In this document: positions 24,940 to 43,276 of the stretch, piece after piece
Layout: each line of letters begins with the position of its first letter
Position numbering within the stretch: the first letter of the stretch is position 1
Assembly (NCBI RefSeq): GCF_022539665.2
Contig: NC_081336.1
Location: forward strand, 4,666,221 to 4,730,220
Length of the DNA: 64,000 nt
From: Daphnia carinata
Taxonomy: Eukaryota > Arthropoda > Branchiopoda > Diplostraca > Daphniidae
Direction of reading: 5' to 3'
Notes under the pieces: generated by a model
The model's database searches: none
Told to the model about the DNA's origin: nothing
Seen by the model: the letters and a program-made list of their open reading frames with translations, nothing else
Made by a program: the position numbers and the translations under genes

Positions 24940-27900
24940 CTTCGATCCGAAACACGAAAAACCTCAATTCGTTACTTTAACTTTTTGATTTCAGACCTTT
25001 GCCTTTTGCAAATTAGAAATATATAGTCAGCGGTGAACTAGTCAATGAACGGCTGACTAGACAGTAAACACCACACAACCTCCACCCGAGAACGCACAGT
25101 TCTGATCTCAACTGGTCAATAGCACAGCCTACAAAATATTAAATAAAGACGAAATGTACAAAGCAGAAGAATGGGCTGGAGCTATGATCGGCCTCATCGC
25201 TAGAGGTCAGGTCATACTACTGTGAAAAATTTCTATTTTCCTTTTACCATAATGATTACGTGCTTCCCACATACGGGTGTTGGCGGGTAACCTATTTCAT
25301 TTATTGAAGTTAATTTTAAACTATAATTTTCTATTACCTTTCCCAATGACCCATAAATAAATTTCTAAGATTCCTAGAACGTTTAGCTGTTAATTTGTAG
25401 AGTCTTATTTTACCCAGAAATGCCGCTCTGATCGATTCTTTGGTCATGATCGGCGATCCGATCAAACTGTGGCAACATGGTCTCCGCAAGTTGACTCGAC
25501 CGTTCGGGTTCCCAGCGGCACCCCCACTCTTGCGTTTTGATTGGCTCTCCAGCTTCGATGCCAGTGGCAACCACCACTGAAAGAAAGCAAGCTGTTGATG
25601 TGTCGTCTGCTTGTGCCGTCTGCGTGTCGTCTGCATCGATTTTAATTTTCAAAATAATTCAATTTTCAAATCACAAAATTACTAATCAAAAATCATGAAA
25701 CGTTCCTGATATCAATACTGACATCTTTTACTACAACCCCTTGGATTCGACGGCAAGCGACTTTTTTGTTTCCGGTGAACCATGATAATGTAAGTAGTTG
25801 TAATAATAATGTAAAGACTGTAAATATTTGAATATGAAAATAAACCGAATGAAAAATTGTCTTTTTTTTGTATTATAATAACAATAAGCCTATACAATAA
25901 GATAATATAGAATCGTAAAACTGTTTTTGAATTTTATTTACGCTGATAATAATAGAAAATTTAAAAATTGCGCCTAAAAATAATGGCACCCGTTTTCTCA
26001 ATTGTGATTGGTTGTTTGTAACTTAGTATTTCCTTAACTAATTTGATAAATTTTTGTTGTTTAATACCCACGAAAACATTCCTCGTGAAACAAGGAATCG
26101 AGGTAATACCTTAATAACATATCATAAGCCTAAAGAATGCCTAAACGAAGGGCCCAAAGTTGTCGATTTTTCGTAGTTTCCCCTCCTCCCATACACCGTC
26201 CAAAAATTAAATATTTATTAATGGAAAAACTATCGGTCTGAAATGAATTATTTTCATTTAACGAATAGCTCTTAGTATGAGCTTTCTAATTCTGTAACAT
26301 TAAAAGTAGGATTTCCGTAACCAAAAAATTTCTGGAACGAAAGATTTTTTGTCGTTTTATCGTTTGGGTCTATTACATCTTTGGATCGCAAAGCTTTGCA
26401 AATAATTTTTTTATATTTTTTTGTGATGGAAATACTGCATTAAATTTTATGAAAATCGAAAGCCCTTACAATGGGCTATTTTTTGCAATTAGAATTATTC
26501 TTTTTAGACCAATAGTTTGTCTATTAATAAATATTTTATTTTTGGACGGTGTATGGGAGGAGGGGAAACTATGAAAAACCGAAAACTTTTCATTTCTTAT
26601 GGTGGTTTTCGTCTGACATTTTTTTCCACCACGGTCGCAGTGTTGTCCAAGAAGTGGGGGATCATTTCTACAAACAGATTATCCCGCTTCTTTTAGACTC
26701 GTGACAATATTATAGAACTTATGGAATTGTATTTACATCGTAATGTCCGGCGTTTGTCCATTGAATAAGTATTTAGTTAGATTTTGGTTCACCAAAAAGG
26801 ACCAAGACTTGGAGTATGCGACAACAAAATACTTACCAAAACGACGGATTTCTTTTAACGTAACTAGAAGAGTGAAAGATGTCGCTGACAAAACTGATTT
26901 TATTAGTTTTGAGTTCTTAAAAAGTTATACACCTGTAACGTATGCTAAACTGCGTATTTTTGCAACCATGCTTATCCCGTCTGAGTTTTTTTTTCAACAT
27001 AAGTGCCATAGCGGAAACTTAAATTACAATCTTTAAATAGAGAAAATTGCCATAGTTCGGCATAATTTTTTAAATGAGATTTTCGACTTAAATACTTCAG
27101 ATTTTATACCAAACATTCAAAACCCCTCTTAACCTAACTGGCCTTGGAAACATACGGGAAGGATGATGTTTACATTGGAAAGCTTCAGCTGACAACTGAC
27201 TATTCACACTGATATATTGTCGGGGGGAAAAAAATCGCAGATGTTGCAATCTCTTCTATGAGACGCTAAAGCTGACGTCGTAACTGCGTATGCTGAAGCT
27301 TCCGGCAAAAGATGCTGTAACATACCTAGAGATTAACAAACCATTGTGTAGCGGTCAGTTCGAAGAATTTATGCAGCCTTAGGCAAGGTGCTTACACTTA
27401 TAATAGTGGGATAGAAGCCATCTTCCTCTCCCACTTTAGTTCTACCCGAGTTCTGCCTCAGTTCACACTTTCTCTTTTTCACTCCCTACAGGTTGTTCAG
27501 AAACATTAAGTAAATTCATTTGTAATTTTGACTTCCAATGCAGTGTGTTCGTTTAGGAGTAAAATACAATGTTTAAATCCAATGTGGCAATAAAGTGATT
27601 TTATTTACCTGTAGAGGTATTCGTTTCTAATTGGGTCATACTAACTATTAAAAAACGATTCTCTAGGCGGAATATTAGAAGATAATGAAGACACAGGATT
27701 TACGGCATTAATACTAGGGATTACGCACCGTGAAAAGGTACAGGACTACGAATTATTCCAACAAAAAACAGAATAAAGTCGCGACAATTGAAAGGGGTGT
27801 CTCTCCATGTCAAGTCGATCACGCCACATCCGGCGAGATGGGTCTGAGTTATATGAACGAAGGCGGTGATATACGAAGGTGTGACCGGATGGTGATCGGA

Positions 27901-30445: not shown

Positions 30446-30831
30446 TGTCGCGAGGGGAAAATAGCATTGTGATCGCCATTTCTGGAAAGGGGCGTCAACC
30501 AACATTTAATTGTGTGCAGCACTGCTTCCCTTGAAAAGAGGCGCTGCGACACGCCGATAATTAGTAAAATGTGGCATTCCCTAGAATTCGTTCAACCCTA
30601 GGGATGGGGCGTATATCCTTCACGAGGGTATAAAAGCCCATACATTTTTTACCCTAAGTTAGTTCTTGTTAGTTCCTGATAGATCTTAAGTCCTACTCAA
30701 GTTCTCAAGTAAGTTCTCTTCACGTTCCTGTATTTCAGTCAAGTAAAGTGTAGTTATTCCTCCTTTCTGTTATGCATTGTATTTTCCCCTTTTAATTCAA
30801 TACAATTCATTAAGTAAAGTCCAGTGTGACA
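30446..30831 (+). repeat. 5' LTR of copy A
   Basis: 386 bp, TG...CA ends, same sequence as 38950-39335 by eye. It contains a TATA box (TATAAAAG, 30629-30636) followed by repeats of TTAGTTC-like initiator sequence. It differs from the LTR of copy B (40132-40517) by scattered substitutions and small indels, roughly one in twenty positions. Confidence 0.95.
30629..30636 (+). promoter_or_regulatory. LTR TATA box
   Basis: TATAAAAG in the 5' LTR, embedded in GAGGGTATAAAAGCCC. It is conserved in the LTR of copy C and present as TATAAAAGC-type sequence in copy B. Transcription of the element probably starts about 30 bp downstream. Confidence 0.7.
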
Positions 30832-30833
30832 AT

Positions 30834-30851: not shown

Positions 30852-30893
30852 TTACCCGTTGTTAACGAATTAGTGCTGCTTTAAAGATAGTCG

Positions 30894-33800
30894 ATGCAGA
30901 AGAAGAATAGCTCACGTTTACCTAGTTGCCCCCGGGATCCAAGTAGACGATTGCACCCGCTTCGTGACTTGCCCACCGCGCTGTCTGGTAACGAGACCAC
31001 AGCGACTAACGAGGCACAAGATTCTGAAATTTCTACGTCAAGAGAAGATTTGGCGACCTCAGGTTCAGAGACGAATCGCCAGAGAGGGTTTGAAAATCCT
31101 GCAAGACAGTCAGAATCAAGTTCTGACTCCGAACAAGATTTAATAGAACCCACCCACCCGGTTGTTCCTCCGATAGGACAACACATTGTTGGACCTCCAA
31201 GACAATTGCAAGAAACAGTCATGGCGGCTGTGAGAAAGTTTATAAGTCCACCTATTTTTCGAGGTAGCCCAACGGAAGACGCTCGTCAATGGTTAGAGCG
31301 CTACGAGACTATCTCTACCCACAACGGTTGGGGCGATGCGGACAAAAGAAATAACTTTTGCATGTATTTGGATGATGCCGCAAGAAATTGGTTCTTGTGT
31401 GCAAGAGTGCCAAACGACTGGCAAGATGTGGCAGCACAGCCGGCTGCCGGAGAAAATCAAGCAAGACCTGCAGTGCCTGGTCTACGTTCGGTATTTTTGA
31501 AAGAATTTCAGCCTAATTCCTATGGTCTTTTTCAAGAAACTAGACTAAGAAGTAGAACCCAGGGAGTGGATGAACCAACCACCAGGTACTACTACGAAAT
31601 TCTTAATCTTTGCAGACTGGTCGACCCAAACATGTCGGAAGTCCACCGGCTAGAGCATCTTTTTAGAGGTCTTCGACCAGCACTTTTTAGAAAGATCTAT
31701 CCTCAGAAGCCACAAACGTGTGAAGAATTCCTAGAACTGGCAAAAGTCTATACGGAGACATCGATGATGTCAGAAGCCAGAGGATGGAAGGACCCCATGG
31801 CAGAATCACAAAAGTCGTCTGAACAAGTTCCGAACCTTTCAGTGGTCTACCCGGAGCAACAAGCTGATCTTTTAAAGACGATGCGTGAAGTCATTCAAGA
31901 AACTTGTGAAAAATTGTTTAAGCAAAGCAGTCAAGAGCAAGCGAAACCTAAAGGGCCGTTCAGACCCAAGGGACGCACAACAAGCGGTAAACCACAGTGT
32001 TTTTACTGCAAAAAAGCAGGGCACATTGCCCGAAGCTGTTTCAGAAATCCTGAATCAGAGAATTACAAAGGCCCGGCAAAGGACGCTGGGGCAGGAACAA
32101 GCTCAAAAGAAAACCCATCCGTAAACTCGGTGGTTCAAGAACTGGTGATGCCAGAAGAAAGCAAAGGTGGTTCAGAAGACTACATTTTGAATTTGAGCCC
32201 TGCGAGATTGATTAAAGAAAAAGTGAAGTGCGGTAAAGAAACTGCAACAGCTTTAATTGATACAGGAGCCGCAGTCACAGTGATTTCTCCTGAATTGTTG
32301 AAAAAAACGGGGTTCGTGGAAAAACCCCGGAGTGGACCGAAAATACGTCTTGTAAACGGCCATACTCTGTCCCCACAGAGTACAGCTGATATTGTAGTAA
32401 CCCACAAAGGCAAGACTATCAAAGGAAACGCGATAGTAATGCCAATGTCAGGTTTTGAACTACTATTGGGAAATGATTTCCTACAACAGTTTCAAGCCAT
32501 TCACATTGACTATGAATCTCAGGAACTGTCGTTTACGACAGGGAAGTCACCACTTCCGGAAATTTCGGCTATTCAAACAGAAGAGGTCAAGGACAACAAG
32601 CTGGTTACAAGAGATCGTCAAGAGATACCAGCATACTCAATTAAGCAGATTTCAACAACAGCTTCCAGTAAGATGGAAGGTTCCTGCATTGTGACACCCT
32701 CGGAGTCATTGTTAGCGACCAATAGCCTATCGACCGGTCATGCACTAGTCCAAAAAGATTTAGAAAAAATTCCTGTTGCTAACTTGTCTCCGAGAACGGT
32801 TTGGCTAGAAAAAGGAGTGACCTTAGGAACGTTAGAAGAACACCCTGAGGCAAAAGAGACAGAAGCGAGCCAAGAAGTCCTAGCAATCGACACCTCAGTC
32901 GAGGAACAAGATTTGAATCAAGATGAGAGCCAATTGTTAGAGCACCTAGAAGAAAGAATTGCAAAGGATCTAACAAAAGAAGAAAAAGAGGAAACATTAA
33001 AAGTCCTCAAGCAATTTATTCATTGTTTTGCACTAAATGAAGATGATTTGGGATATTGTGCAGTAGTCAAACACGACATTAACACGGGAACTACTGCCCC
33101 AATACATCAACTCCCTTACAAGAGTGCTTGGAAAGAAAGAGCAGTGATCCAAAATCAAGTGGAAGGAATGCTACGTCGAGGAGTAATTGAACCGTCTGAC
33201 AGCCCTTGGTCTTCTCCAGTGGTTCTGGTGAAGAAGAAAGACGGAACTTGGCGTTTTTGTGTGGACTATCGCAAGCTCAATGCGGTAACAGTTAAAGATT
33301 CCTATCCTTTACCGCGCATAGCGGATACACTGAGTCGCCTAGAAGGGGCGACGTTCTTTTCAAGCATGGATTTGCAAGCAGGATACCACCAGGTTCCAGT
33401 GGTTAGCAGTGACAGACCGAAGACAGCTTTCATCACTGCAGATGGATTGTACCAGTTTCGCACTCTTCCGTTTGGTCTAACTAATGCCCCTGGCACTTTT
33501 CAGAGAGCCATGGACATTATTTTGGCTGGACTTCGCTGGACAACATGCCTGATCTACCTAGATGACGTCATAATTTACTCAGCAACTTTCCAACAACACT
33601 TGGAACGTCTTCGCTTAGTGCTGAGTTGCCTTGTGAAAGCTGGTTTGAAACTAAAGTGGTCAAAATGCTCATTCTTGGAGCACACTCTAAAAGTGTTGGG
33701 ACATGTGATTTCAAAAGATGGTGTAGCACCAGATCCTGAAAAGCTCGAGGCAGTCTCGAACTTCCCATCACCTAGTGAAGGCTATTCTACAGCAAACAAA

Positions 33801-36800
33801 GTTAAACGAGTGCAAAGTTTTTTGGGCCTATGTTCGTACTATCGACGTCATATTCAAGGTTTTGCTTCAATCGCTCGCCCACTCACGTCACTCACGAAGA
33901 AAGAAATTTCGTTTGTGTGGGGAGAAGATCAGGTAAACAGTTTCGTTGCCCTGAAAAAAGCGCTAACTTCAGCTCCAGTGTTAGCCCATCCCAACTACGA
34001 CTTGCCAATGGAAATTTTTCCTGACGCCTGCGGATACGGGATTGGAGGTGTGTTAGCCCAGCGTATTGATGAGGCAGAACGTCCTATCGCATACGCAAGC
34101 CGTTTACTGACTAAATCGGAAGTGAACTATTCGATAACTGAAAAAGAGTGTCTTGCATTAGTGTGGTGTCTCTCCAAGTTTAGATGTTTTGTGTGGGGCT
34201 GCAAAGTGAAAGTCGTCACAGATCATCAAGCACTGTGTTGGTTGATGAGCAAAAAAGACCTAGCAGGTCGTTTAGCACGTTGGAGCTTGTCGCTACAAGA
34301 ATACGATATCACGATCGTATACCGCAGTGGAAAAACGCACGACAACGCAGATTGTCTTTCAAGAAATCCATTACCAAAGACAGAGGAGCAAGAAGACGAC
34401 CGCTGTGTCGTCATAGGGGCACTAACTGATGACCTAACACTCGCTGAAGAAGAAAACGAGTCCCTGGCAGACAAACAAAAAGCCTGCAGTAATTGGAATC
34501 AGCTAATACAAAAAATCCAAAGTGGAAAAGCAAGAGTGAAAAATTTCGTGATCAACGATGGCAAACTCTACAAAGAAACTATAAAGAATGGAAAAAGTTA
34601 TAGAAGATTGTGCGTACCTGTAGAGTATCGTGAAAGAATCCTATACGCCTACCATGACGACATCGTTTCCGGTCACCTTGGAATCAGTCGCACTCTGCAA
34701 AAAATTAGTGATCGTTACTACTGGCCGAAGATGACACTAGACATAGTACGTCATGTACAGAGCTGCGTACACTGTCAGAGCAGAAAAGGAGTCCCAGACA
34801 AACCTCCAGGACTTCTACAATGCATTAAAGTGGAAAGACCGTTTCAAAAAGTAGGAATGGACCTTCTAGGGCCATTCCCGCTCTCCACAAAAGGAAACAG
34901 AATGATTATAGTGGCAGTAGATTACCTGACCAAATGGGTAGAGTTGAAAGCTATGCCCACTGGAAAGGCAGATGACGTGGCAGAGTTCTTCGTTCAACAA
35001 ATCTTTCTACGCCATGGGGCTCAAGAACAAATCATCACGGATCGGGGAAAGTGCTTCGTCGCCGACCTAACTCAAGCTGTCGTCAAGAAACTACTCACCA
35101 ACCACAAGACGACTTCCAGTTACCACCCCCAGGCAAATGGAGCAGTGGAAAGAATGAACCATACATTGGCTGCAATGCTGTCCATGTACGTCAGCAGTGA
35201 TCAACGGGATTGGGATGAAACCTTGCAGTACGTGTGCTTCGCATACAACACGGCTAGACAAGAGTCTACGGGGTACTCACCATTCTTCCTCCTCTACGGA
35301 CGTGAACCAAGACTTCCCATTGACTTGGAGTTGGAAGCAGACCCAAACCCGTTGTTGGAAGAAGAAGAAGCGGCAGTGGGATATGCAGATCGTTTAATTG
35401 CCGACTTAGCAGCAGCTAGAGAGAAAGTGAAAATTAGAATGGAGAGTGTGCAGCAAAAGCAAAAAGAAACTTACGATGCACGTCATAGAGAACTGACATT
35501 CAAAGAAGGAGATTTAGTGTTGATTTACAAGCCTGTGCGTAAAGTGGGAAAATCAGAAAAACTTCTTCATCGTTGGCTTGGACCATTCAAAGTGTTAAGA
35601 CAAACCACTCCAGTGAACTATGAAGTGGTATCGGCAACCGGCCGAGGTAAAACGGATATCGTTCACGTGGTTCGGATGAAATCATTCCATGAAGCTGTGT
35701 CAGGTCCTAACATCACCGAAGAAGCGGCAGAAAAAGAAGATGAGAATCATCTAGAAGCAGAAACACAAGAAACACCTGCTTCAACTGATCCACAAGCTCA
35801 GGCCGACTCAGAAGAAGCACCAATTGAGCAGAGTAATCCGTCATCAAGCACCGAGGAAAACGACGTGGTCACGCCCGCTCCAGAACCAATCACGCCAGCT
35901 TCAACGAGAAGACCCACTCGTAGCAGAAGACCTCCGGCCAGATATTTAACTCTATTGGTGCCGTTCCTCATTTTCCTGATTGGGCCGCTGTCAACCAACT
36001 CGCTGATCCTGAGAGAAAATGCAATTTTCAAACAACAAACTGATGTGGCGTTCAGTGAATCATCATGGACCATCGTAACAGACCTTGACTTGGGAGTAGC
36101 TGATACAGCAACAGCATACTTGAAGCAGAAGATAACCCAGCAGCAGGAAGTAGCACAGAAGTGGAAGAATACAGGGTCACGGCCACAACAAATAGCAGCC
36201 AGAAGAATCGCTAGCAGAACAGAAACAATCCTAAGAGGAATGGAAAATGTAGCAGACCGATTGACAAACATCAGAAAAGCATTGAATACTAACCAAAGAA
36301 GTCCTCGAAGCCTTGTCGACGGTGGAGGGTCAATCCTGAAATGGCTGTTTGGAGTTTCAACACAGAAAGATTTAGAAGAATTAAATAATCAAGTACAACT
36401 TGTTGCTCGAGATCAGAGAGAAGTAATTCACATCATCGATAAGCAAGCAACAATTGTAAATGAATCACTTTGGGAATCCAGAACAAACGCAAAACTCATC
36501 AGAGAACTGCGAGGCCAGTATTCCATGCTAAGCAATGTGACAACAAACCTCATGGACAGAGTGGTGAAGATGGAAGAGTTAGAACTAAATCACTTCGAAT
36601 ATTACATCCAACTGGACGAAACATTTGAAGCGATGAATCAGATCTTGCAGTGGCTACAACATTTGGCCGATAGTCTCGACGTCGGCTTCAGTCTGTTGGC
36701 CAACGGACATTTGGCACCACAAATTGTTTCGCCAGCAAGATTCAACAAAGTCATTAAAATAATAAACGAGAAATTACCAAGAGGATGGTCTATCTCCAGC

Positions 36801-37811
36801 GAGGAGCTTTGGGTCGCCTACAGAGAATCAACCGTCACGGTGGCGGCCATGGAAAACTCGTTTCGCCTCTTCATAAATGTTCCCATCTTCGATCACAGCC
36901 AGCAGTTCAAGCTTTTCGAAATAATCAACCTTCCGGCAGCTACAGACAACGGAACACATGGCGTCTCGCTCGGAAATCTACCAGAGTACCTTGCTGTGTC
37001 CGCCGACCTCGAAACGTATCTGGAACTATCCAAAGAAGATGTTAAAGATTGCAGCAAAATAGGAAGACCGTTGTGTAAATTTCATACCGGAATTAGCAAG
37101 AGAACAACCCGAAAGTCGTGTGCAATGGCTGTCTTCTTAAACGATTCGGCCCGAATCAACACACAGTGTAAAAAGAAATTCACAGACTGGCGTGGACCTG
37201 AAGTGGTTTACATGGGATCCAATCAATGGGTCTATTCCGCAACAAAGCCGCACGAGATTGTGTTTTCGTGTCCAGCGGGAGGGGAGCAGCCACCTTTGAG
37301 AACAACAACGTTACCAGCTGTAGGAATGTTTGAAGTACCTTTGGGATGCACCGCTCGAACAGAAGAATGGGTATTCCCAGCCAGCATGGAAGGAAGTGTA
37401 ACAGCGCCAAAACTACAAGCAATTGTGCTTCCAACAGTGAAAATCTTTGCACAAGATGTCCAAGAAACCGAAGGAAAAAAGCACAATTTCGTCGAGCTTC
37501 CACGAGAAAACAATACGTCGGTAGACATAATCAGTCAGCTGCTCCATCGCAACGCTCAAGCAACGTTGTCGTCTGAAATGACGGGAGAGCAAATTCAAAA
37601 TTTAATTTTGGAAAAAGAAAAACAAAAAGAATTTTACCTTACTCGTTACCCTTACGAGTTAGTGGCTTTCAATATTTTCCTAACGTGTGGAATAGTGTTC
37701 TTAGTGCTTCAATTCTACATGTTACACAAGCGTCTTATTGCTCATGAACAGTGTGAAGACGCTCCACCCGGAGACCCCGGGAGGGACGAAATGGAGACTG
37801 AAAATCTCTAA
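30894..37811 (+). CDS. Gag-Pol-Env fused polyprotein of LTR retroelement (2305 aa)
   Basis: One uninterrupted frame. Gag occupies about residues 1-350, with a CCHC knuckle (CFYCKKAGHIARSC) near 375. Protease follows with LIDTGAAVTVIS near 455. Reverse transcriptase has YLDDVIIYS near 890, and RNase H has DACGYGIGGVLAQ and TEKECLALVW. Integrase has an HHCC finger (GHLGISRTLQ through CVHCQSRK), the core D in GMDLLGPFP, D in TDRGKCF, and E in ANGAVERMN. A hydrophilic linker leads to a hydrophobic signal-like segment (YLTLLVPFLIFLIGPL) and an Env resembling gypsy Env/baculovirus F: an Arg-rich RSPRS cleavage-like site followed by a glycine-rich segment ending LKWLFG, and a C-terminal membrane helix near residues 2260-2280. 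Gypsy normally shifts frame between gag and pol and splices env; here all are in one frame. How Env is released is not evident. Confidence 0.95.
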   Translation: MQKKNSSRLPSCPRDPSRRLHPLRDLPTALSGNETTATNEAQDSEISTSREDLATSGSETNRQRGFENPARQSESSSDSEQDLIEPTHPVVPPIGQHIVGPPRQLQETVMAAVRKFISPPIFRGSPTEDARQWLERYETISTHNGWGDADKRNNFCMYLDDAARNWFLCARVPNDWQDVAAQPAAGENQARPAVPGLRSVFLKEFQPNSYGLFQETRLRSRTQGVDEPTTRYYYEILNLCRLVDPNMSEVHRLEHLFRGLRPALFRKIYPQKPQTCEEFLELAKVYTETSMMSEARGWKDPMAESQKSSEQVPNLSVVYPEQQADLLKTMREVIQETCEKLFKQSSQEQAKPKGPFRPKGRTTSGKPQCFYCKKAGHIARSCFRNPESENYKGPAKDAGAGTSSKENPSVNSVVQELVMPEESKGGSEDYILNLSPARLIKEKVKCGKETATALIDTGAAVTVISPELLKKTGFVEKPRSGPKIRLVNGHTLSPQSTADIVVTHKGKTIKGNAIVMPMSGFELLLGNDFLQQFQAIHIDYESQELSFTTGKSPLPEISAIQTEEVKDNKLVTRDRQEIPAYSIKQISTTASSKMEGSCIVTPSESLLATNSLSTGHALVQKDLEKIPVANLSPRTVWLEKGVTLGTLEEHPEAKETEASQEVLAIDTSVEEQDLNQDESQLLEHLEERIAKDLTKEEKEETLKVLKQFIHCFALNEDDLGYCAVVKHDINTGTTAPIHQLPYKSAWKERAVIQNQVEGMLRRGVIEPSDSPWSSPVVLVKKKDGTWRFCVDYRKLNAVTVKDSYPLPRIADTLSRLEGATFFSSMDLQAGYHQVPVVSSDRPKTAFITADGLYQFRTLPFGLTNAPGTFQRAMDIILAGLRWTTCLIYLDDVIIYSATFQQHLERLRLVLSCLVKAGLKLKWSKCSFLEHTLKVLGHVISKDGVAPDPEKLEAVSNFPSPSEGYSTANKVKRVQSFLGLCSYYRRHIQGFASIARPLTSLTKKEISFVWGEDQVNSFVALKKALTSAPVLAHPNYDLPMEIFPDACGYGIGGVLAQRIDEAERPIAYASRLLTKSEVNYSITEKECLALVWCLSKFRCFVWGCKVKVVTDHQALCWLMSKKDLAGRLARWSLSLQEYDITIVYRSGKTHDNADCLSRNPLPKTEEQEDDRCVVIGALTDDLTLAEEENESLADKQKACSNWNQLIQKIQSGKARVKNFVINDGKLYKETIKNGKSYRRLCVPVEYRERILYAYHDDIVSGHLGISRTLQKISDRYYWPKMTLDIVRHVQSCVHCQSRKGVPDKPPGLLQCIKVERPFQKVGMDLLGPFPLSTKGNRMIIVAVDYLTKWVELKAMPTGKADDVAEFFVQQIFLRHGAQEQIITDRGKCFVADLTQAVVKKLLTNHKTTSSYHPQANGAVERMNHTLAAMLSMYVSSDQRDWDETLQYVCFAYNTARQESTGYSPFFLLYGREPRLPIDLELEADPNPLLEEEEAAVGYADRLIADLAAAREKVKIRMESVQQKQKETYDARHRELTFKEGDLVLIYKPVRKVGKSEKLLHRWLGPFKVLRQTTPVNYEVVSATGRGKTDIVHVVRMKSFHEAVSGPNITEEAAEKEDENHLEAETQETPASTDPQAQADSEEAPIEQSNPSSSTEENDVVTPAPEPITPASTRRPTRSRRPPARYLTLLVPFLIFLIGPLSTNSLILRENAIFKQQTDVAFSESSWTIVTDLDLGVADTATAYLKQKITQQQEVAQKWKNTGSRPQQIAARRIASRTETILRGMENVADRLTNIRKALNTNQRSPRSLVDGGGSILKWLFGVSTQKDLEELNNQVQLVARDQREVIHIIDKQATIVNESLWESRTNAKLIRELRGQYSMLSNVTTNLMDRVVKMEELELNHFEYYIQLDETFEAMNQILQWLQHLADSLDVGFSLLANGHLAPQIVSPARFNKVIKIINEKLPRGWSISSEELWVAYRESTVTVAAMENSFRLFINVPIFDHSQQFKLFEIINLPAATDNGTHGVSLGNLPEYLAVSADLETYLELSKEDVKDCSKIGRPLCKFHTGISKRTTRKSCAMAVFLNDSARINTQCKKKFTDWRGPEVVYMGSNQWVYSATKPHEIVFSCPAGGEQPPLRTTTLPAVGMFEVPLGCTARTEEWVFPASMEGSVTAPKLQAIVLPTVKIFAQDVQETEGKKHNFVELPRENNTSVDIISQLLHRNAQATLSSEMTGEQIQNLILEKEKQKEFYLTRYPYELVAFNIFLTCGIVFLVLQFYMLHKRLIAHEQCEDAPPGDPGRDEMETENL

Positions 37812-37898
37812 AAAGGAAATCGTTAGTGATAAAGAAGAAAAATAACTGCTGTGTGAAAAAGTGAAAAAGTTTATTATCACAGAACAAAAAATGTACAA

Positions 37899-38438
37899 TT
37901 ATGCTCCTCGGTTAACGGAATAATCCAAAAAATTGTGGGCTTCAGCTTCGTGATCTTCAGCTTCAGCATTCAAAACTTCAAGCCAAACAAGCCGAGCATC
38001 TACTCTGGCTTGCATCTCGGCTTGAGTGACTTCCCTGTAGAAGTCGGAGCGGCGAGGAGTTGGATGGTAGACGTCCTGATTTGACTCAAACCACCAAAGG
38101 AGACGGGCGTGAAAATGACAAAAGTGATCCCGGTATTTGGCATACCCAGGATATGTGCTAAAAGAAAAGAGAAACGTTAGTGTGGAACTAAAAAACCAAC
38201 CAAAGAAGGGTACTTACCTGTAGTAGTAATCGTTTATCCACGGAGCATTAACGATTAGGGGAGAACCCAAAACTACGTTGTCATTGGTTACTTTTGTTAA
38301 AATCACCAAAAACTCCTGATAGTCATGCGGATTTAGGCGAACGAAAGGGCTCCTAAAACTGGAAAACGCACTCGCGAAACTCACAAGCGCACATTCCACA
38401 AAACGCAGATTTTCAAGAACAAACTGAAGAGTAAACAT
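37899..38438 (-). CDS. Antisense two-exon accessory gene inside copy A (159 aa, unknown function)
   Basis: Runs opposite to the element between env and the 3' LTR. Exon 1 is 38218-38438, starting MFTLQFVLENLRFVEC. A 60-bp intron with clean ends (AG/GTAAGTAC and CTTTTAG) follows, then exon 2 at 37899-38157 ending NRGA and TAA. Together they make 159 codons with no stop. An antisense AATAAA sits about 25 bp after the stop (near 37870), so the unit looks like a complete small gene convergent with env. The predicted protein has a hydrophobic N-terminal half, an aromatic patch after the junction (DYYY, LLWWFE) and an acidic Ala/Glu-rich C-terminus. I recognise no family. The same two-exon layout occurs in copy B (41025-41565). 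Antisense extra ORFs are known in some plant gypsy elements (for example Grande, Retand); whether this is related is unknown. Confidence 0.75.
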
Positions 38439-38522
38439 TTTTTTGTCAAAAGCAAGAAACGAACTAAAGACGGAAGGCAGCAGTTGAATTTCTTATGCAT
38501 CATAATGTCGTAGTTTACCTTT

Positions 38523-38544
38523 TTTCACACCTTTAGGTGTGAAA
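38523..38544. repeat. 22-bp palindrome upstream of the antisense gene (copy A)
   Basis: Half-site TTTCACACCT facing its inverted copy around a TT/TA centre; one central mismatch here, perfect in copy B at 40923-40944. It lies about 85 bp upstream of the antisense start codon, a position suited to a regulatory or core-promoter site. Confidence 0.7.
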
Positions 38545-38590
38545 TGCTAATTATAGTCGTCTTTATTACGTTTGTAGTGCTAGAAAATTC

Positions 38591-38820
38591 CTTTTCGATA
38601 AAAGCACATTTCATTGTATGCTCGACTCCTATTGTAGTCGTTCTACTACCTCTCTAAAGCGACCACGCTTTACCGTATGCCTGTCTTCTACTATAGTTGT
38701 CCCTTCACCTCTATAATGCGACCACGCGCTTTTGTACGATTGACCTTTACTGTAGTTGTCCCTTCACCGTACTAAAGCGACCTCGCTCTATCGTATGCTT
38801 TTTTATTACTATAGTTACTC
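38591..38820. repeat. Tandem array, 59-bp period, about four units (copy A)
   Basis: Each unit contains a TACTATAGTTGTCCC-like segment and a small inverted repeat of the type AAAGCG-N4-CGCTTT. The counterpart in copy B has exact 59-bp spacing. It lies between the antisense gene and the 3' LTR. Fixed-spacing repeats with a dyad suggest protein-binding sites such as an enhancer or insulator; that is inference. Confidence 0.85.
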
Positions 38821-38935
38821 ACTCTCTATTAGCCTTGGGGTTATTTTGAAAATTACGGGTATCTTTTCCTAATAGTTTGTTCATGTCCGTGATCACCTTT
38901 TTAATGATTGTTAGTACAGTCGGGTCGCCTGTCTT

Positions 38936-38949
38936 GAAGAAGGGGGACC
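38936..38949 (+). other. Polypurine tract before the 3' LTR
   Basis: AAGAAGGGGGACC directly abuts the TGTCGCG start of the 3' LTR, the usual site for plus-strand priming. The same motif abuts the LTRs of copies B and C on the opposite strand. Confidence 0.85.
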
Positions 38950-39335
38950 TGTCGCGAGGGGAAAATAGCATTGTGATCGCCATTTCTGGAAAGGGGCGTC
39001 AACCAACATTTAATTGTGTGCAGCACTGCTTCCCTTGAAAAGAGGCGCTGCGACACGCCGATAATTAGTAAAATGTGGCATTCCCTAGAATTCGTTCAAC
39101 CCTAGGGATGGGGCGTATATCCTTCACGAGGGTATAAAAGCCCATACATTTTTTACCCTAAGTTAGTTCTTGTTAGTTCCTGATAGATCTTAAGTCCTAC
39201 TCAAGTTCTCAAGTAAGTTCTCTTCACGTTCCTGTATTTCAGTCAAGTAAAGTGTAGTTATTCCTCCTTTCTGTTATGCATTGTATTTTCCCCTTTTAAT
39301 TCAATACAATTCATTAAGTAAAGTCCAGTGTGACA
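38950..39335 (+). repeat. 3' LTR of copy A
   Basis: 386 bp, reads as identical to the 5' LTR. Followed by ATAA (39336-39339), the right copy of the target duplication. Confidence 0.95.
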
Positions 39336-39339
39336 ATAA

Positions 39340-39578
39340 CGAAGACATGTCCCGGCACGTCGGCTAAAAATAGATTTATTTCGGTTGGTCTGAGATTGCC
39401 TGAAATGGCCTAAAACCGCCCAATCGACTTTTAACTATCGTCCAAATTCGTTCGATACCGCCCGAATTTGCCCGCGTATACCTCCCCATCGCTCCCAAAA
39501 TCGCCCGATACTGCCCGATATTGCCGCCTATCCTTTAACACTGTGCCGTATGGCTCTTACAGTCGATGGCTAACATAT
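39340..39578. other. Spacer between copies A and C with short degenerate repeats
   Basis: About 240 bp of host-like sequence. The middle (about 39400-39530) repeats variants of CGCCCGATACTGCCCGATAT with loose spacing. No coding potential is visible. Confidence 0.5.
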
Positions 39579-40131
39579 TGTCACACTGGACTCTACTTTG
39601 TTAAATGAATTGTATTGTACGTTAAGGAAAAATACAAGACATAGCAGAGATAAAGAATAACTATACTTTGTACTTAACTTGACGTGAAGAGAACTGTAGG
39701 GAAACTTTTAAGAGTTGAAGAACTGAACTAGGGTTAAAAATGTGGGGGCTTTTATACCCTCGTTAAGGATAAACGCCCCATCTCTAGGGTTACATAAATT
39801 CAGGGAATAACTAAGTGTTAACAGATGATTGGCGTGTTGCAACTTCTTTTCAAGAGAAGCTGCATTGCACGCCATTGGATCGTTGGTTATCACGTCATTC
39901 GCAGAAATGACAACCATATCGCTTTTCCTTCGCGACAGGTCCCCCTTCTTCAAGACAGGCGACCCGACTGTACTAACAATCATTAAAAGGAAATCAAGGG
40001 CATAACAGACTATTTGGGAAACCCGTGATTCTCGAAAATCGTCAAAAGCTAGTAGGGAATGAATAACTATAGTAATGAGAAAGCATACGATAAAGCGCGA
40101 TCGCTTTAGAGAGGTAGAGGGACAACTATAT
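39579..40131 (-). mobile_element. Copy C: older LTR plus short 3' internal stub
   Basis: In reverse orientation: a diverged LTR at 39579-39937 (about 359 bp, TGTCACAC to CGCGACA), then the complement of the polypurine tract and 3' internal sequence, including one repeat unit of the 59-bp type. It is cut at 40131, inside that unit, by the LTR of copy B. Many differences from LTR A indicate that it is the oldest of the three. Confidence 0.85.
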
Positions 40132-40517
40132 TGTCACACTGGACTTTACTTAATGAATTGTATTGAATTAAAAGGGGAAAATACAATACATAAGAGAAGG
40201 GAAGAATGACTACACTTTACTTTAACTGAAACACAGGAGACGTGAAGAAAACTTACTTGAGAACTTGAGTAGAACTTAAGAACTTCAGAACTAACAAGAA
40301 CTAACTTAGGGTAAAAAATGTATAAGCTTTTATACCCTCGTGAAGGATATACGCCCCATCCCTAGGGTTGAACGAATTCTAGGGAATGCCACATTTTACT
40401 AATTATTGGCGCGTCGTAGCGCCTCTTTTCAAGGGAAACTGTGCTGCAAACAATTAAATGTTGGCTGACGCCCCTTTCCAGAAATGGCAATCACAATGCT
40501 ATCTTCCCCTCGCGACA
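40132..40517 (-). repeat. 3' LTR of copy B
   Basis: 386 bp, same ends and layout as the LTRs of copy A but with scattered substitutions and small indels. It is followed on its inner side by GGTCCCCCTTCTTC, the complement of the polypurine tract. Confidence 0.93.
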
Positions 40518-40651
40518 GGTCCCCCTTCTTCAAGACAGGCGACCCGACTGTACTAACAATCATTAAAAAGGTAATCACGGGCATGAACAAAATATTAGGG
40601 AAAGATACCCGTAATTTTCAAAATAACCCCAAGGCTAATAGAGAGTGAGTA

Positions 40652-40880
40652 ACTATAGTAATAAAAAAGCATACGATAGAGCGAGGTCGCTTTAGTACGG
40701 TGAAGGGACAACTACAGTAAAAGTCAATCGTACAAAAGCGCATGGTCGCATTATAGAGGTGAAGGGACAACTATAGTAGAAGACAGGCATACGGTAAAGC
40801 GTGGTCGCTTTAGAGAGGTAGAAGAACGACTACAATAGAAGTCAAGCATACAATGAAATGTGCTTTTATCGAAAAGGAAT
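40652..40880. repeat. Tandem array with exact 59-bp spacing (copy B)
   Basis: Units begin with ACTATAGTA, ACTACAGTA, ACTATAGTA and ACTACAATA at 40652, 40711, 40770 and 40829, exactly 59 bp apart. The first three contain a GCG...CGC dyad (for example AAAGCGTGGTCGCTTTA) and the last is degenerate. Homologous to 38591-38820. Confidence 0.9.
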
Positions 40881-40922
40881 TTTCTAGCACTACAAACGTA
40901 ATAAAGACGACTATAATTAGCA

Positions 40923-40944
40923 TTTCACACCTATAGGTGTGAAA
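40923..40944. repeat. Perfect 22-bp palindrome (copy B)
   Basis: Half-site TTTCACACCTA followed directly by its inverse complement. It lies about 80 bp upstream of the plus-strand start codon of the antisense-gene copy at 41025, matching the place of the near-perfect version in copy A. Confidence 0.85.
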
Positions 40945-41024
40945 AAAGGTAACGACGTTATGATGCATAAGAAATTCAACTGCTGCCTTCCGTCTTTAGT
41001 TCGTTTCTTGCTTTTGACAAAAAA

Positions 41025-41565
41025 ATGTTTACTCTTCAGTTTGTTCTTGAAAATCTGCGTTTTGTGGAATGTGCGCTTGTGTCTTTTGCGAGTGCGTTTT
41101 CCCATTTTAGGAGCCCTTTCGGTCGCTTAACTCCGCATGACTATCAGGAGTTTTTGGTGATTTTAACAAAAGTGACCAATGACAACGTAGATTTGGGTTC
41201 TCCCCTAATCGTTAATGCTCCGTAGATAAACGATTACTACTACAGGTAAGTACCCTTCTTTGGTTGGTTTTTTAGTTCCACATTAACGTTTCTCTTTTCT
41301 TTTTAGCACATATCCTGGGTATGCCAAATACCGGGATCACTTTTGTCATTTTCACGCCCGTCTCCTTTGGTGGTTTGAGCCAAATCAGGACGTCTACCAT
41401 CCAACTCCTCGCCGCTCCGACTTCTACAGGGAAGTCACTCAAGCCGAGATGCAAGCCAGAGTAGATGCTCGGCTTGTTTGGCTTGAAGTTTTGAATGCTG
41501 AAGCTGAAGATCACGAAGCTGAAACCCACAATTTTTTGGATTATTCCGTTAACCGAGGAGCATGA
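41025..41565 (+). pseudogene. Copy B version of the antisense accessory gene, broken by a nonsense change
   Basis: Same two-exon structure as in copy A: exon 1 at 41025-41245, a 61-bp intron with GTAAGTAC donor and TTTTTAG acceptor, and exon 2 at 41307-41565. The frame is preserved except for TAG at about 41223-41225, where copy A has TGG (after IVNAP). The terminal TAA has become TGA. A few further amino-acid changes occur in both exons. The intron and its signals remain intact. Confidence 0.85.
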
Positions 41566-41652
41566 TTGTACATTTTTTGTTCTGTGATAATAAACTTTTT
41601 CACTTTTTAACACAGCAGTTATTTTTCTTCTTTATCACTAACGATTTCCTTT

Positions 41653-43276
41653 TTAGAGATTTTCAGTCTCCATTTCGTCCCTCCCGGGGTCTCCGGGTGG
41701 AGCGTCTTCACACTGTTCATGAGCGATAAGACGCTTGTGTAACATGTAGAATTGAAGCACTAAGAACACTATTCCACACGTTAGGAAAATATTGAAAGCC
41801 ACTAACTTGTAAGGGTAACGAGTAAGGTAAAATTCTTTTTGTTTTTCTTTTTGCAAAATTAAATTTTGAATTAGCTCTCCCGTCATTTCAGAAGACAACG
41901 TTGCTTGTGCGTTGCGATGGAGCAGCTGACTGATTATGTCTACCGACGTAGTGTTTTCTCGTGGAAGCTCGACGAAATTGTGCTTTTTTCTTTCGGTTTC
42001 TTGGACATCTTGTGCAAAGATTTTCACTGTTGGAAGCACAATTGCTTGTAGTTTTGGCGCTGTTACACTTCCCTCCATGCTGGCTGGGAATACCCATTCT
42101 TCTGTTCGAGCGGTGCATCCCAAAGGTACTTCAAACATTCCTACAGCTGGTAACGTTGTTGTTCTCAAAGGTGGCTGCTCCCCTCCCGCTGGACACGAAA
42201 ACACAATCTCGTGCGGCTTTGTTGCGGAATAGACCCATTGATTGGATCCCATGTAAACCACTTCAGGTCCACGCCAGTCTGTGAATTTCTTTTTACACTG
42301 TGTGTTGATTCGGGCCGAATCGTTTAAGAAGACAGCCATTGCACACGACTTTCGGGTTGTTCTCTTGCTAATTCCGGTATGAAATTTACACAACGGTCTT
42401 CCTATTTTGCTGCAATCTTTAACATCTTCTTTGGATAGTTCCAGATAAGTTTCGAGGTCGGCGGACACAGCAAGGTACTCTGGTAGATTTCCGAGCGAGA
42501 CGCCATGTGTTCCGTTGTCTGTAGCTGCCGGGAGGTTGATTATTTCGAAAAGCTTGAACTGCTGGCTGTGATCGAAGATGGGAACATTTATGAAGAGGCG
42601 AAACGAGTTTTCCATGGCCGCCACCGTGACGGTTGATTCTCGGTAGGCGACCCAAAGCTCATCGCTGGAAATAAACCATCCTCTTGGTAATTGCTCGTTT
42701 ATCGTTCTAATAACTTTATTAAATCTTGCTGGAGAGACAATCTGTGGCGCCAAATGCCCGTTGGCTAACAGACTGAATCCGACATCGGGACTATCGGCAA
42801 ATTGTTGTAGCCACAGCAAGATTTGATTCATTGCTTCAAGTGTTTCGTCCAGTTGGATGTAATACTCGAAGTGACTTAGTATTAGTTGTCCTATGTTCCC
42901 CTCCGTCTCCATGAGGTGTGTTTTGGCATTGTTTAGTTTGGAATACTGGCCTCGCAGCTCTCCGATGACTTTTGCGTTTGTTCTAGACTCCCAAAGTGAT
43001 TCATTCACTATTGTTGCTTGTTTATCAATAAAGTGGATTACTTCTCTTTGATCTCGAGAAACAAGTTGCATTTGACTGTTTAATTCTTCTAAATCTTTTT
43101 CTGTTGCTACACCAAACAGCCATTTCAGGATTGATCCTCCACCGTCAACGAGACTTCTGACGGTTTCTTTGGTTAGGATTTAAAGCTTTTTTGATGTTTT
43201 CCAATCGGTCTGCTACATTCTCCATTCCTTTCAGGATTGTCTGCGTTCTGCTGGTGACTCTTCTGGCTGCTATTTG
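41653..43276 (-). pseudogene. Truncated env of copy B
   Basis: From about 43071 to 41653 a 472-codon frame matches the C-terminal Env of copy A, including the membrane helix and the end GRDEMETENL. Upstream, around 43150-43180, a one-base length difference from copy A shifts the frame near the Arg-rich cleavage-like site, and the element is truncated at about 43276. Similarity is uneven: the last 330 or so residues are almost identical to copy A, while the preceding 130 differ at many positions. Confidence 0.9.

Follow-up and report, generated by a model that had tools for sequence, protein, structure and literature searches.

We propose that an accessory gene of endogenous retroviruses in Daphnia carinata is encoded on the strand opposite to gag, pol and env and is expressed as a spliced mRNA. 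It was recognized in a 64,000-nucleotide stretch of contig NC_081336.1 (assembly GCF_022539665.2, positions 4,666,221 to 4,730,220 of the forward strand), which we call the window. The window holds two copies of the element: copy A, the reference, and copy B, an inverted second copy. From the order of its domains, copy A would be a Ty3/gypsy-type, env-bearing endogenous retrovirus resembling the errantiviruses. On present sequence data, the best reading is that a functional, protein-coding gene lies antisense between env and the 3′ long terminal repeat (LTR) of such elements. That the gene is real, coding and spliced is very highly probable on this evidence, as the original prediction had proposed from the window alone, and many further copies support it. 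When the gene, its splicing, its exchange between elements and some trans-acting role are taken together, leaving aside what the host target might be, we put the probability at about 0.6.

The gene had been described as two antisense exons of 221 and 259 nt that join across a 60-nt intron into 159 codons, and these coordinates and sizes hold on the sequence of copy A (Table 1), in which the joined frame ends in a stop codon. An in-frame TAA opens the intron and closes read-through of the unspliced frame; the antisense frame is thus continuous only if the transcript is spliced. Stop counts in all six frames reveal no alternative frame open across the stretch: the unspliced antisense frame has two stops, one in the intron and one at its end, the remaining antisense frames have 11 and 13, and the sense frames have 5, 15 and 7. 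The antisense AATAAA that had been noted after the gene is present, too. Such a hexamer occurs within 150 nt in 12 of 30 copies examined, with 2.6 expected from shuffles, and a general poly(A) signal for the gene family was accordingly rejected. Upstream of the antisense ATG lies the palindrome TTTCACACCTAAAGGTGTGAAA, which resembles a T-box motif. Because the palindrome or its half site is kept in only part of the clade with baculovirus-F env, it cannot explain expression in general; none was found in the distant loci examined, and it was dropped as a general promoter.

Homologues were sought in the D. carinata genome itself, and the copies carry L0xx labels. In keeping with an arthropod host, TTAGG repeats, the arthropod telomere signature, were matched 4451 times forward and 826 times in reverse, with no match in either direction in the control. 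The exon-2 query returned 132 matches, the exon-1 query 44 and the DNA query 41. Forty-two copies were aligned, 40 of them from the DNA query (68–100% identical to copy A) and two from the exon-2 protein search. Among them, the ATG is present in 39, the GT in 41 and the AG in 38, and an intron of 58–67 nt is retained in 40; the exceptions are L046, which is truncated, and L031, which has lost the exon 1 side. This retention fits the idea, put forward with the original prediction, that an antisense intron would survive reverse transcription.

Splice dinucleotides and intactness were counted over 39 distinct copies, copy A included. Agreement with copy A is seen in 145 of 150 cells at the dinucleotides and in 1281 of 1824 across the remaining intron (p 1e-15); read-through is closed in 24 of the 26 distinct copies with exon 1 in frame. 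Sixteen of the 39 are fully intact. In a neutral simulation that allowed substitutions only and started from intact copy A, with 20,000 replicates per divergence level, intact copies numbered 38 when divergence was 25% and 1425 when it was 10%. Stops and frameshifts at neutral rates, which would have told against the gene, are not seen in the family. Copy B had been thought to preserve the start, the intron and both frames. It does keep the ATG, the splice ends, a 61-nt intron and exon 2, but an in-frame TAG breaks exon 1, so both frames are not preserved and copy B was set aside as independent support for the intactness of the gene.

Selection was measured on 18 copies with open exons (L013 among them, although it lacks the AG), giving 153 pairs, of which 144 with dS of 0.2–3 were kept. 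The dN/dS comparison over many copies that had been suggested for the gene yields a median of 0.216 (0.134–0.362); for env, over 86 pairs, it is 0.158. Differences at codon positions 1, 2 and 3, pooled over six pairs, number 152, 105 and 269 (p 2e-18). The antisense frame is, as judged from these alignments, under purifying selection. Positive selection on the whole protein was not seen in the pairwise dN/dS values (0.13–0.36).

The gene is not confined to close kin of copy A. In total, 142 gene places were recognized, made up of 131 of the 132 exon-2 rows (one row being the second piece of one gene) and 11 extra places. For their placement, we used 72 of 72, 47 of 135 and 122 of 132 env rows from three lists; the 88 rows left out of the 135-row list lie, by eye, at loci already in the 132-row list, from which ten small end pieces were omitted. 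Among the env matches listed, 110 of the 142 places lie antisense past the env C-terminus, with the 3′ end of the gene 41–1465 bp away (median 384). The env neighbours of these 110, again among the matches listed, are of the baculovirus-F kind found in copy A in 35 cases and belong to two lectin-env lineages in 29 and 46 cases. The closest copies, judged by alignment, have an LTR beyond the gene, as copy A does.

Distant members share 32–55% identity with copy A over exon 2. Of 17 distinct distant loci, 10 have a GTAA, GTGA or GTAC donor 57–76 nt before the AG that precedes an exon 2 start of the form x-P/L-GYA; in the remaining seven, the donor is missing or altered, or its position is uncertain. 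The deepest split of the exon-2 tree separates copy-A-like genes from lectin-env genes (support 100/99), although the tree has some long branches and does not cleanly resolve the two lectin-env lineages, lecA and lecB. At depth, therefore, the gene travelled with the env type. Gene-bearing relatives carry ricin-type beta-trefoil lectin matches in the frame at the env position (L067:36-2471, L073:11-1150 and L074:2034-3215); the ricin-B-lectin model (PF00652) scores above the Pfam cut-off in L067 and L073 and below it in L074. Further along in L070 and L073, there is a weak Baculo_F match under the cut-off. No paper on a ricin-lectin domain in a Ty3 envelope was found in the portion of the open-licence PMC literature covered.

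Some lineages do without the gene, which makes it accessory. In L075, it is missing between conserved flanks, and a sense ankyrin-repeat frame follows env; in this lectin-env lineage, frames reach about 1390 codons and near-identical copies are numerous. The lineage appears to have lost the gene rather than never to have had it. The sense ankyrin open reading frame (ORF) of the lecB lineage is found beyond env in L075:874-2301 and beyond the antisense gene in L073:3545-4000. In all, 116 listed env rows have no gene within 3 kb, several of them pieces of one env, and a separate baculovirus-F clade, at 40–44% identity, is among them.

The gene and its surroundings do not share one history. Outside the gene, L010–L014 match copy A at 97.6–100% in four env bins from 35900 to 37811, at 98–99% over 122 nt lying upstream of it and at about 97% in the LTR; inside it, identity is 85–89% for exon 2, roughly 90% for exon 1 and 90–92% for the intron. 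For copy A and L010, gene dS is 0.383 and env dS 0.014, with differences of 0.008 for the flank and 0.029 for the LTR; for copy A and L040, gene dS is 1.67, with an env dS of 0.014 and an LTR difference of 0.03. L037 and L039 present the reverse case, with a gene dS of 0.02, an env dS of 0.378 and an LTR distance of 0.19. In 60-bp bins, the identity steps are abrupt at the gene edges in the A/L040 and A/L010 comparisons, and the near-identical stretch of L037 and L039 extends some hundred bases past the gene on both sides. Among the 105 pairs with enough env, nine combine an env dS below 0.05 with a gene dS above 0.3. These are copy A against L010–L013, and L040 against copy A and L010–L013; since they share few members, they stand for about two events. 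Exchange of the gene as a cassette between elements is, on these comparisons, highly probable. The expected route would be template switching between genomes packaged together; a possible alternative is DNA-level gene conversion. Recombination between variants of insect endogenous retroviruses has been reported in passages of PMC12992720.

How would such a gene work? Host RNA polymerase II would transcribe it from its own upstream region, and the host spliceosome would remove the intron, which may persist because the packaged genomic RNA is of the other strand. The protein, of 159 amino acids in copy A, would then have its trans effect on a target in the host, not on the LTR or env of its own element. 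One gene version occurs with diverged LTRs and envs, and different versions occur with similar ones, so a partner that has to match the element's own LTR or env is improbable. This leaves a host target as the simplest choice, with host-facing action by itself somewhat short of an even bet; an HBZ-like regulator with conserved targets comes next, clearly behind, and self-limitation after that. It is tempting to go further and to picture a genome-wide pool of divergent alleles, common to several env-bearing families and moving as a cassette between related elements, in which backbones acquire new alleles as purifying selection continues on the protein, and a counter-defence or identity gene has kept its intron only because it is antisense to the packaged RNA. 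We regard this fuller picture as an even proposition.

It may be that the gene regulates the element's own transcription or latency, as HBZ of HTLV-1 does or as has been proposed for plant antisense ORFs, and so tunes LTR expression. It lies on the same side and strand as HBZ/APH and the plant antisense genes, as far as the sources covered describe them, and tandem repeats adjoin it, as they reportedly do in about half of Retand elements. However, the same version accompanies LTRs that are 0.19 apart (L037/L039) and very different versions accompany LTRs only 0.03 apart (A/L040); the gene is thus not matched to its LTR. In addition, no DNA-binding family was matched in the profile searches. 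We consider this reading unlikely, though it is the strongest of the competitors. The truncated Gag of Ty1 is a copy-number-capping factor, and a self-limiting or superinfection-exclusion factor of that sort, spread by exchange, would agree with the long open frames and many near-identical copies of the gene-less lineage. The product, though, matches no Gag or env family in Pfam, and why a purely self-limiting gene should be under purifying selection is difficult to see, which leaves this reading rather improbable. Less probable still is that the antisense RNA itself is selected, by masking or by feeding small RNAs, with the frame incidental. The antisense position next to env at the 110 places just described, among the env matches listed, is what this would lead one to expect, but the dN/dS of 0.22, the codon-position bias and the conservation of splice sites point to selection on the protein and on splicing.

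The divergence spike could also be accelerated evolution in place rather than exchange, given that each of the 14 copy A comparisons with env data gives a higher dS for the gene than for env. Synonymous sites and the intron rise together, however, and dN/dS stays at 0.13–0.36, from which replacement as a unit, not acceleration, follows; the reverse case of L037 and L039, with the same gene and diverged env, likewise does not sit well with acceleration, to which we give little credence. That the frame is a chance opening or a decaying fossil without function is hardly believable: 23 of the 39 distinct copies do carry at least one defect, but the simulated intact fraction at 25% divergence falls far below the 16 of 39 observed, and the place of the intron recurs in distant members.

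Several observations weigh against a functional, exchanged accessory gene, and they should be set beside the evidence in its favour. The 23 broken copies are the majority of the distinct ones. The AATAAA is absent at the eight loci L067–L074, and a poly(A) signal is not general. Of the 142 places, 27 have no listed env within 2.5 kb; since the env searches scored 69 of 353, 135 of 404 and 117 of 432 candidates, that is, part of all, this count is an upper bound. Another five places are off the layout: in three, the closest env in the lists shares the strand of the gene and is about 1.9 kb off, and in two, the distance to the env match is negative, at 674 bp. The case for exchange comes from few events, about two forward and one reverse pair, and gene dS values near or above 1 are close to saturation. 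An arms race does not usually show as strong purifying selection. Finally, Pfam, NCBIfam, PHROGs and the PDB gave no significant match between the product and any family whose function is known, and a single-sequence fold of exon 2 is helical and of low confidence (predicted local distance difference test score, pLDDT, 63; predicted template modelling score, pTM, 0.35).

More specific candidates for the product did not fare better. A heat-shock-factor DNA-binding fold was dropped, as the profile matches (E 0.21, the best in the PDB, and 0.44) were not significant and the predicted fold of exon 2 was helical and of low confidence. TRP28 (PF04195) is not among the Pfam matches at E<=1 for the two exon pieces of copy A and 22 exon-2 members, and no Pfam match to bZIP was found in the exon pieces of copy A or in the exon-2 members. 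A search for relatives in viral metagenome contigs gave 31 pattern matches, none of them confirmed.

The features of the window are collected in Table 1. Pfam places gag, aspartic protease, reverse transcriptase (RT), RNase H and integrase (IN) domains between the LTRs of copy A, with the gag model PF03732 at 20.1 bits, under its cut-off of 24.1. The last 2 bp of the LTR match are probably shared flank, and by eye an ATAA direct repeat lies outside. Gag, pol and env form one uninterrupted frame in copy A, and similar env-spanning frames, of 2306, 2312 and 2473 codons, are open in some other copies. Tandem repeats of 59 bp occupy the stretch between gene and LTR in both copies, at 38648-38816 in copy A and 40651-40851 in copy B. 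The two copies face each other with their tails and so form a large inverted repeat (window 36307-43157), and short LTR-edge pieces recur in or beside the spacer between them (39924-39988 and 40504-40568). A separate inverted repeat at 26156-26589 has two 103-nt arms, 88% complementary and 228 nt apart.

Table 1. Features of copy A and of the antisense gene in copies A and B, in window coordinates (PR, protease)
Feature	Positions	Strand	Remarks
5′ LTR, copy A	30446..30833	+	388-bp exact match to 3′ LTR
gag-PR-RT-RNaseH-IN-env	30891..37811	+	single open frame, stop to stop, 2306 codons; Pfam on pieces
env, copy A	36510..37748	+	Baculo_F, PF12259, E 6.2e-23
AATAAA	37870..37875	-	24 nt beyond the stop codon
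Exon 2	37899..38157	-	259 nt, TAA at end
Intron	38158..38217	-	60 nt, phase 2, GTAAGT...TTTTAG
Exon 1	38218..38438	-	ATG to AG-GT donor; 221 nt, 73 codons + 2 nt
Palindrome TTTCACACCTAAAGGTGTGAAA	38523..38544		upstream of antisense ATG; presumably T-box-like
Tandem repeat	38648..38816		period 59, 2.9 copies, between gene and 3′ LTR
3′ LTR, copy A	38950..39337	+	exact match to 5′ LTR
Antisense gene, copy B	41025..41563	+	ATG, GT..AG (61-nt intron) and exon 2 kept; TAG breaks exon 1

Antisense genes are already known from deltaretroviruses and plant elements; here, one appears deeply conserved and spliced in animal Ty3/gypsy-type retroviruses. The listings, abstracts and passages of the open-licence PMC literature covered do not describe a spliced antisense gene for any animal Ty3/gypsy element. 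The several natural alleles on near-identical backbones make a ready comparison set for what antisense genes do. They also let one follow, in nature, the exchange of an accessory gene between endogenous retroviruses, and they illustrate how a retroelement gene can keep an intron.

The two parallels drawn in the original prediction, with plant gypsy elements and with HBZ-type genes of retroviruses, are borne out by the parts of PMC7264820, PMC11963269 and PMC10186651 covered. In plant Ty3/gypsy elements, according to passages of PMC7264820 and PMC11963269, the antisense ORF called aORF-3R (Grande gene23, RIRE2, Retand/TRP28) is found past the last sense gene, ahead of the 3′ LTR, and shows conservation within lineages; an own promoter has been reported for the Grande gene, and about half of Retand elements have tandem repeats in the antisense-ORF region. 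The Daphnia gene is likewise a conserved antisense ORF past the last sense gene, at 110 of the 142 places among the env matches listed. It differs in belonging to env-bearing, animal-type elements, in having no TRP28 match, in its conserved phase-2 intron and in its cassette exchange; no word beginning with "intron" occurs in the main text of PMC7264820 or PMC11963269. HBZ and APH of the deltaretroviruses are spliced antisense genes, and HBZ is a bZIP protein expressed from the 3′ LTR (passages of PMC10186651). The likeness would be that an env-bearing retroelement carries, at its 3′ end, an antisense gene with conserved splice sites. In the Daphnia elements, however, the ATG, the intron and both coding exons are in the internal region, there is no bZIP match, and the element is of the Ty3/gypsy type.

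Among animal LTR elements, those of bdelloid rotifers also have modular extra genes common to several retroelements, but these are env-like, GDSL or DEDDy genes at the ORF3 place, and in the parts of PMC5408684 covered "antisense" and "reverse orientation" are used only of small RNAs. Cer1, a CERV of C. elegans, likewise makes a novel accessory protein from a spliced mRNA, as PMC10309623 describes; that protein is needed for export of the genomic RNA, and the word "antisense" is absent from the main text. The insect errantiviruses bearing Env-F share the gag-pol-env order and a baculovirus-F env, and recombination among their variants has been reported. The passages of PMC12992720 covered mention no antisense gene in them; the Daphnia relatives also have ricin-B-lectin env matches and an ankyrin ORF. 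The same passages argue against exchange of env-F between lineages; in the Daphnia elements, it is a cassette other than env that would have been exchanged.
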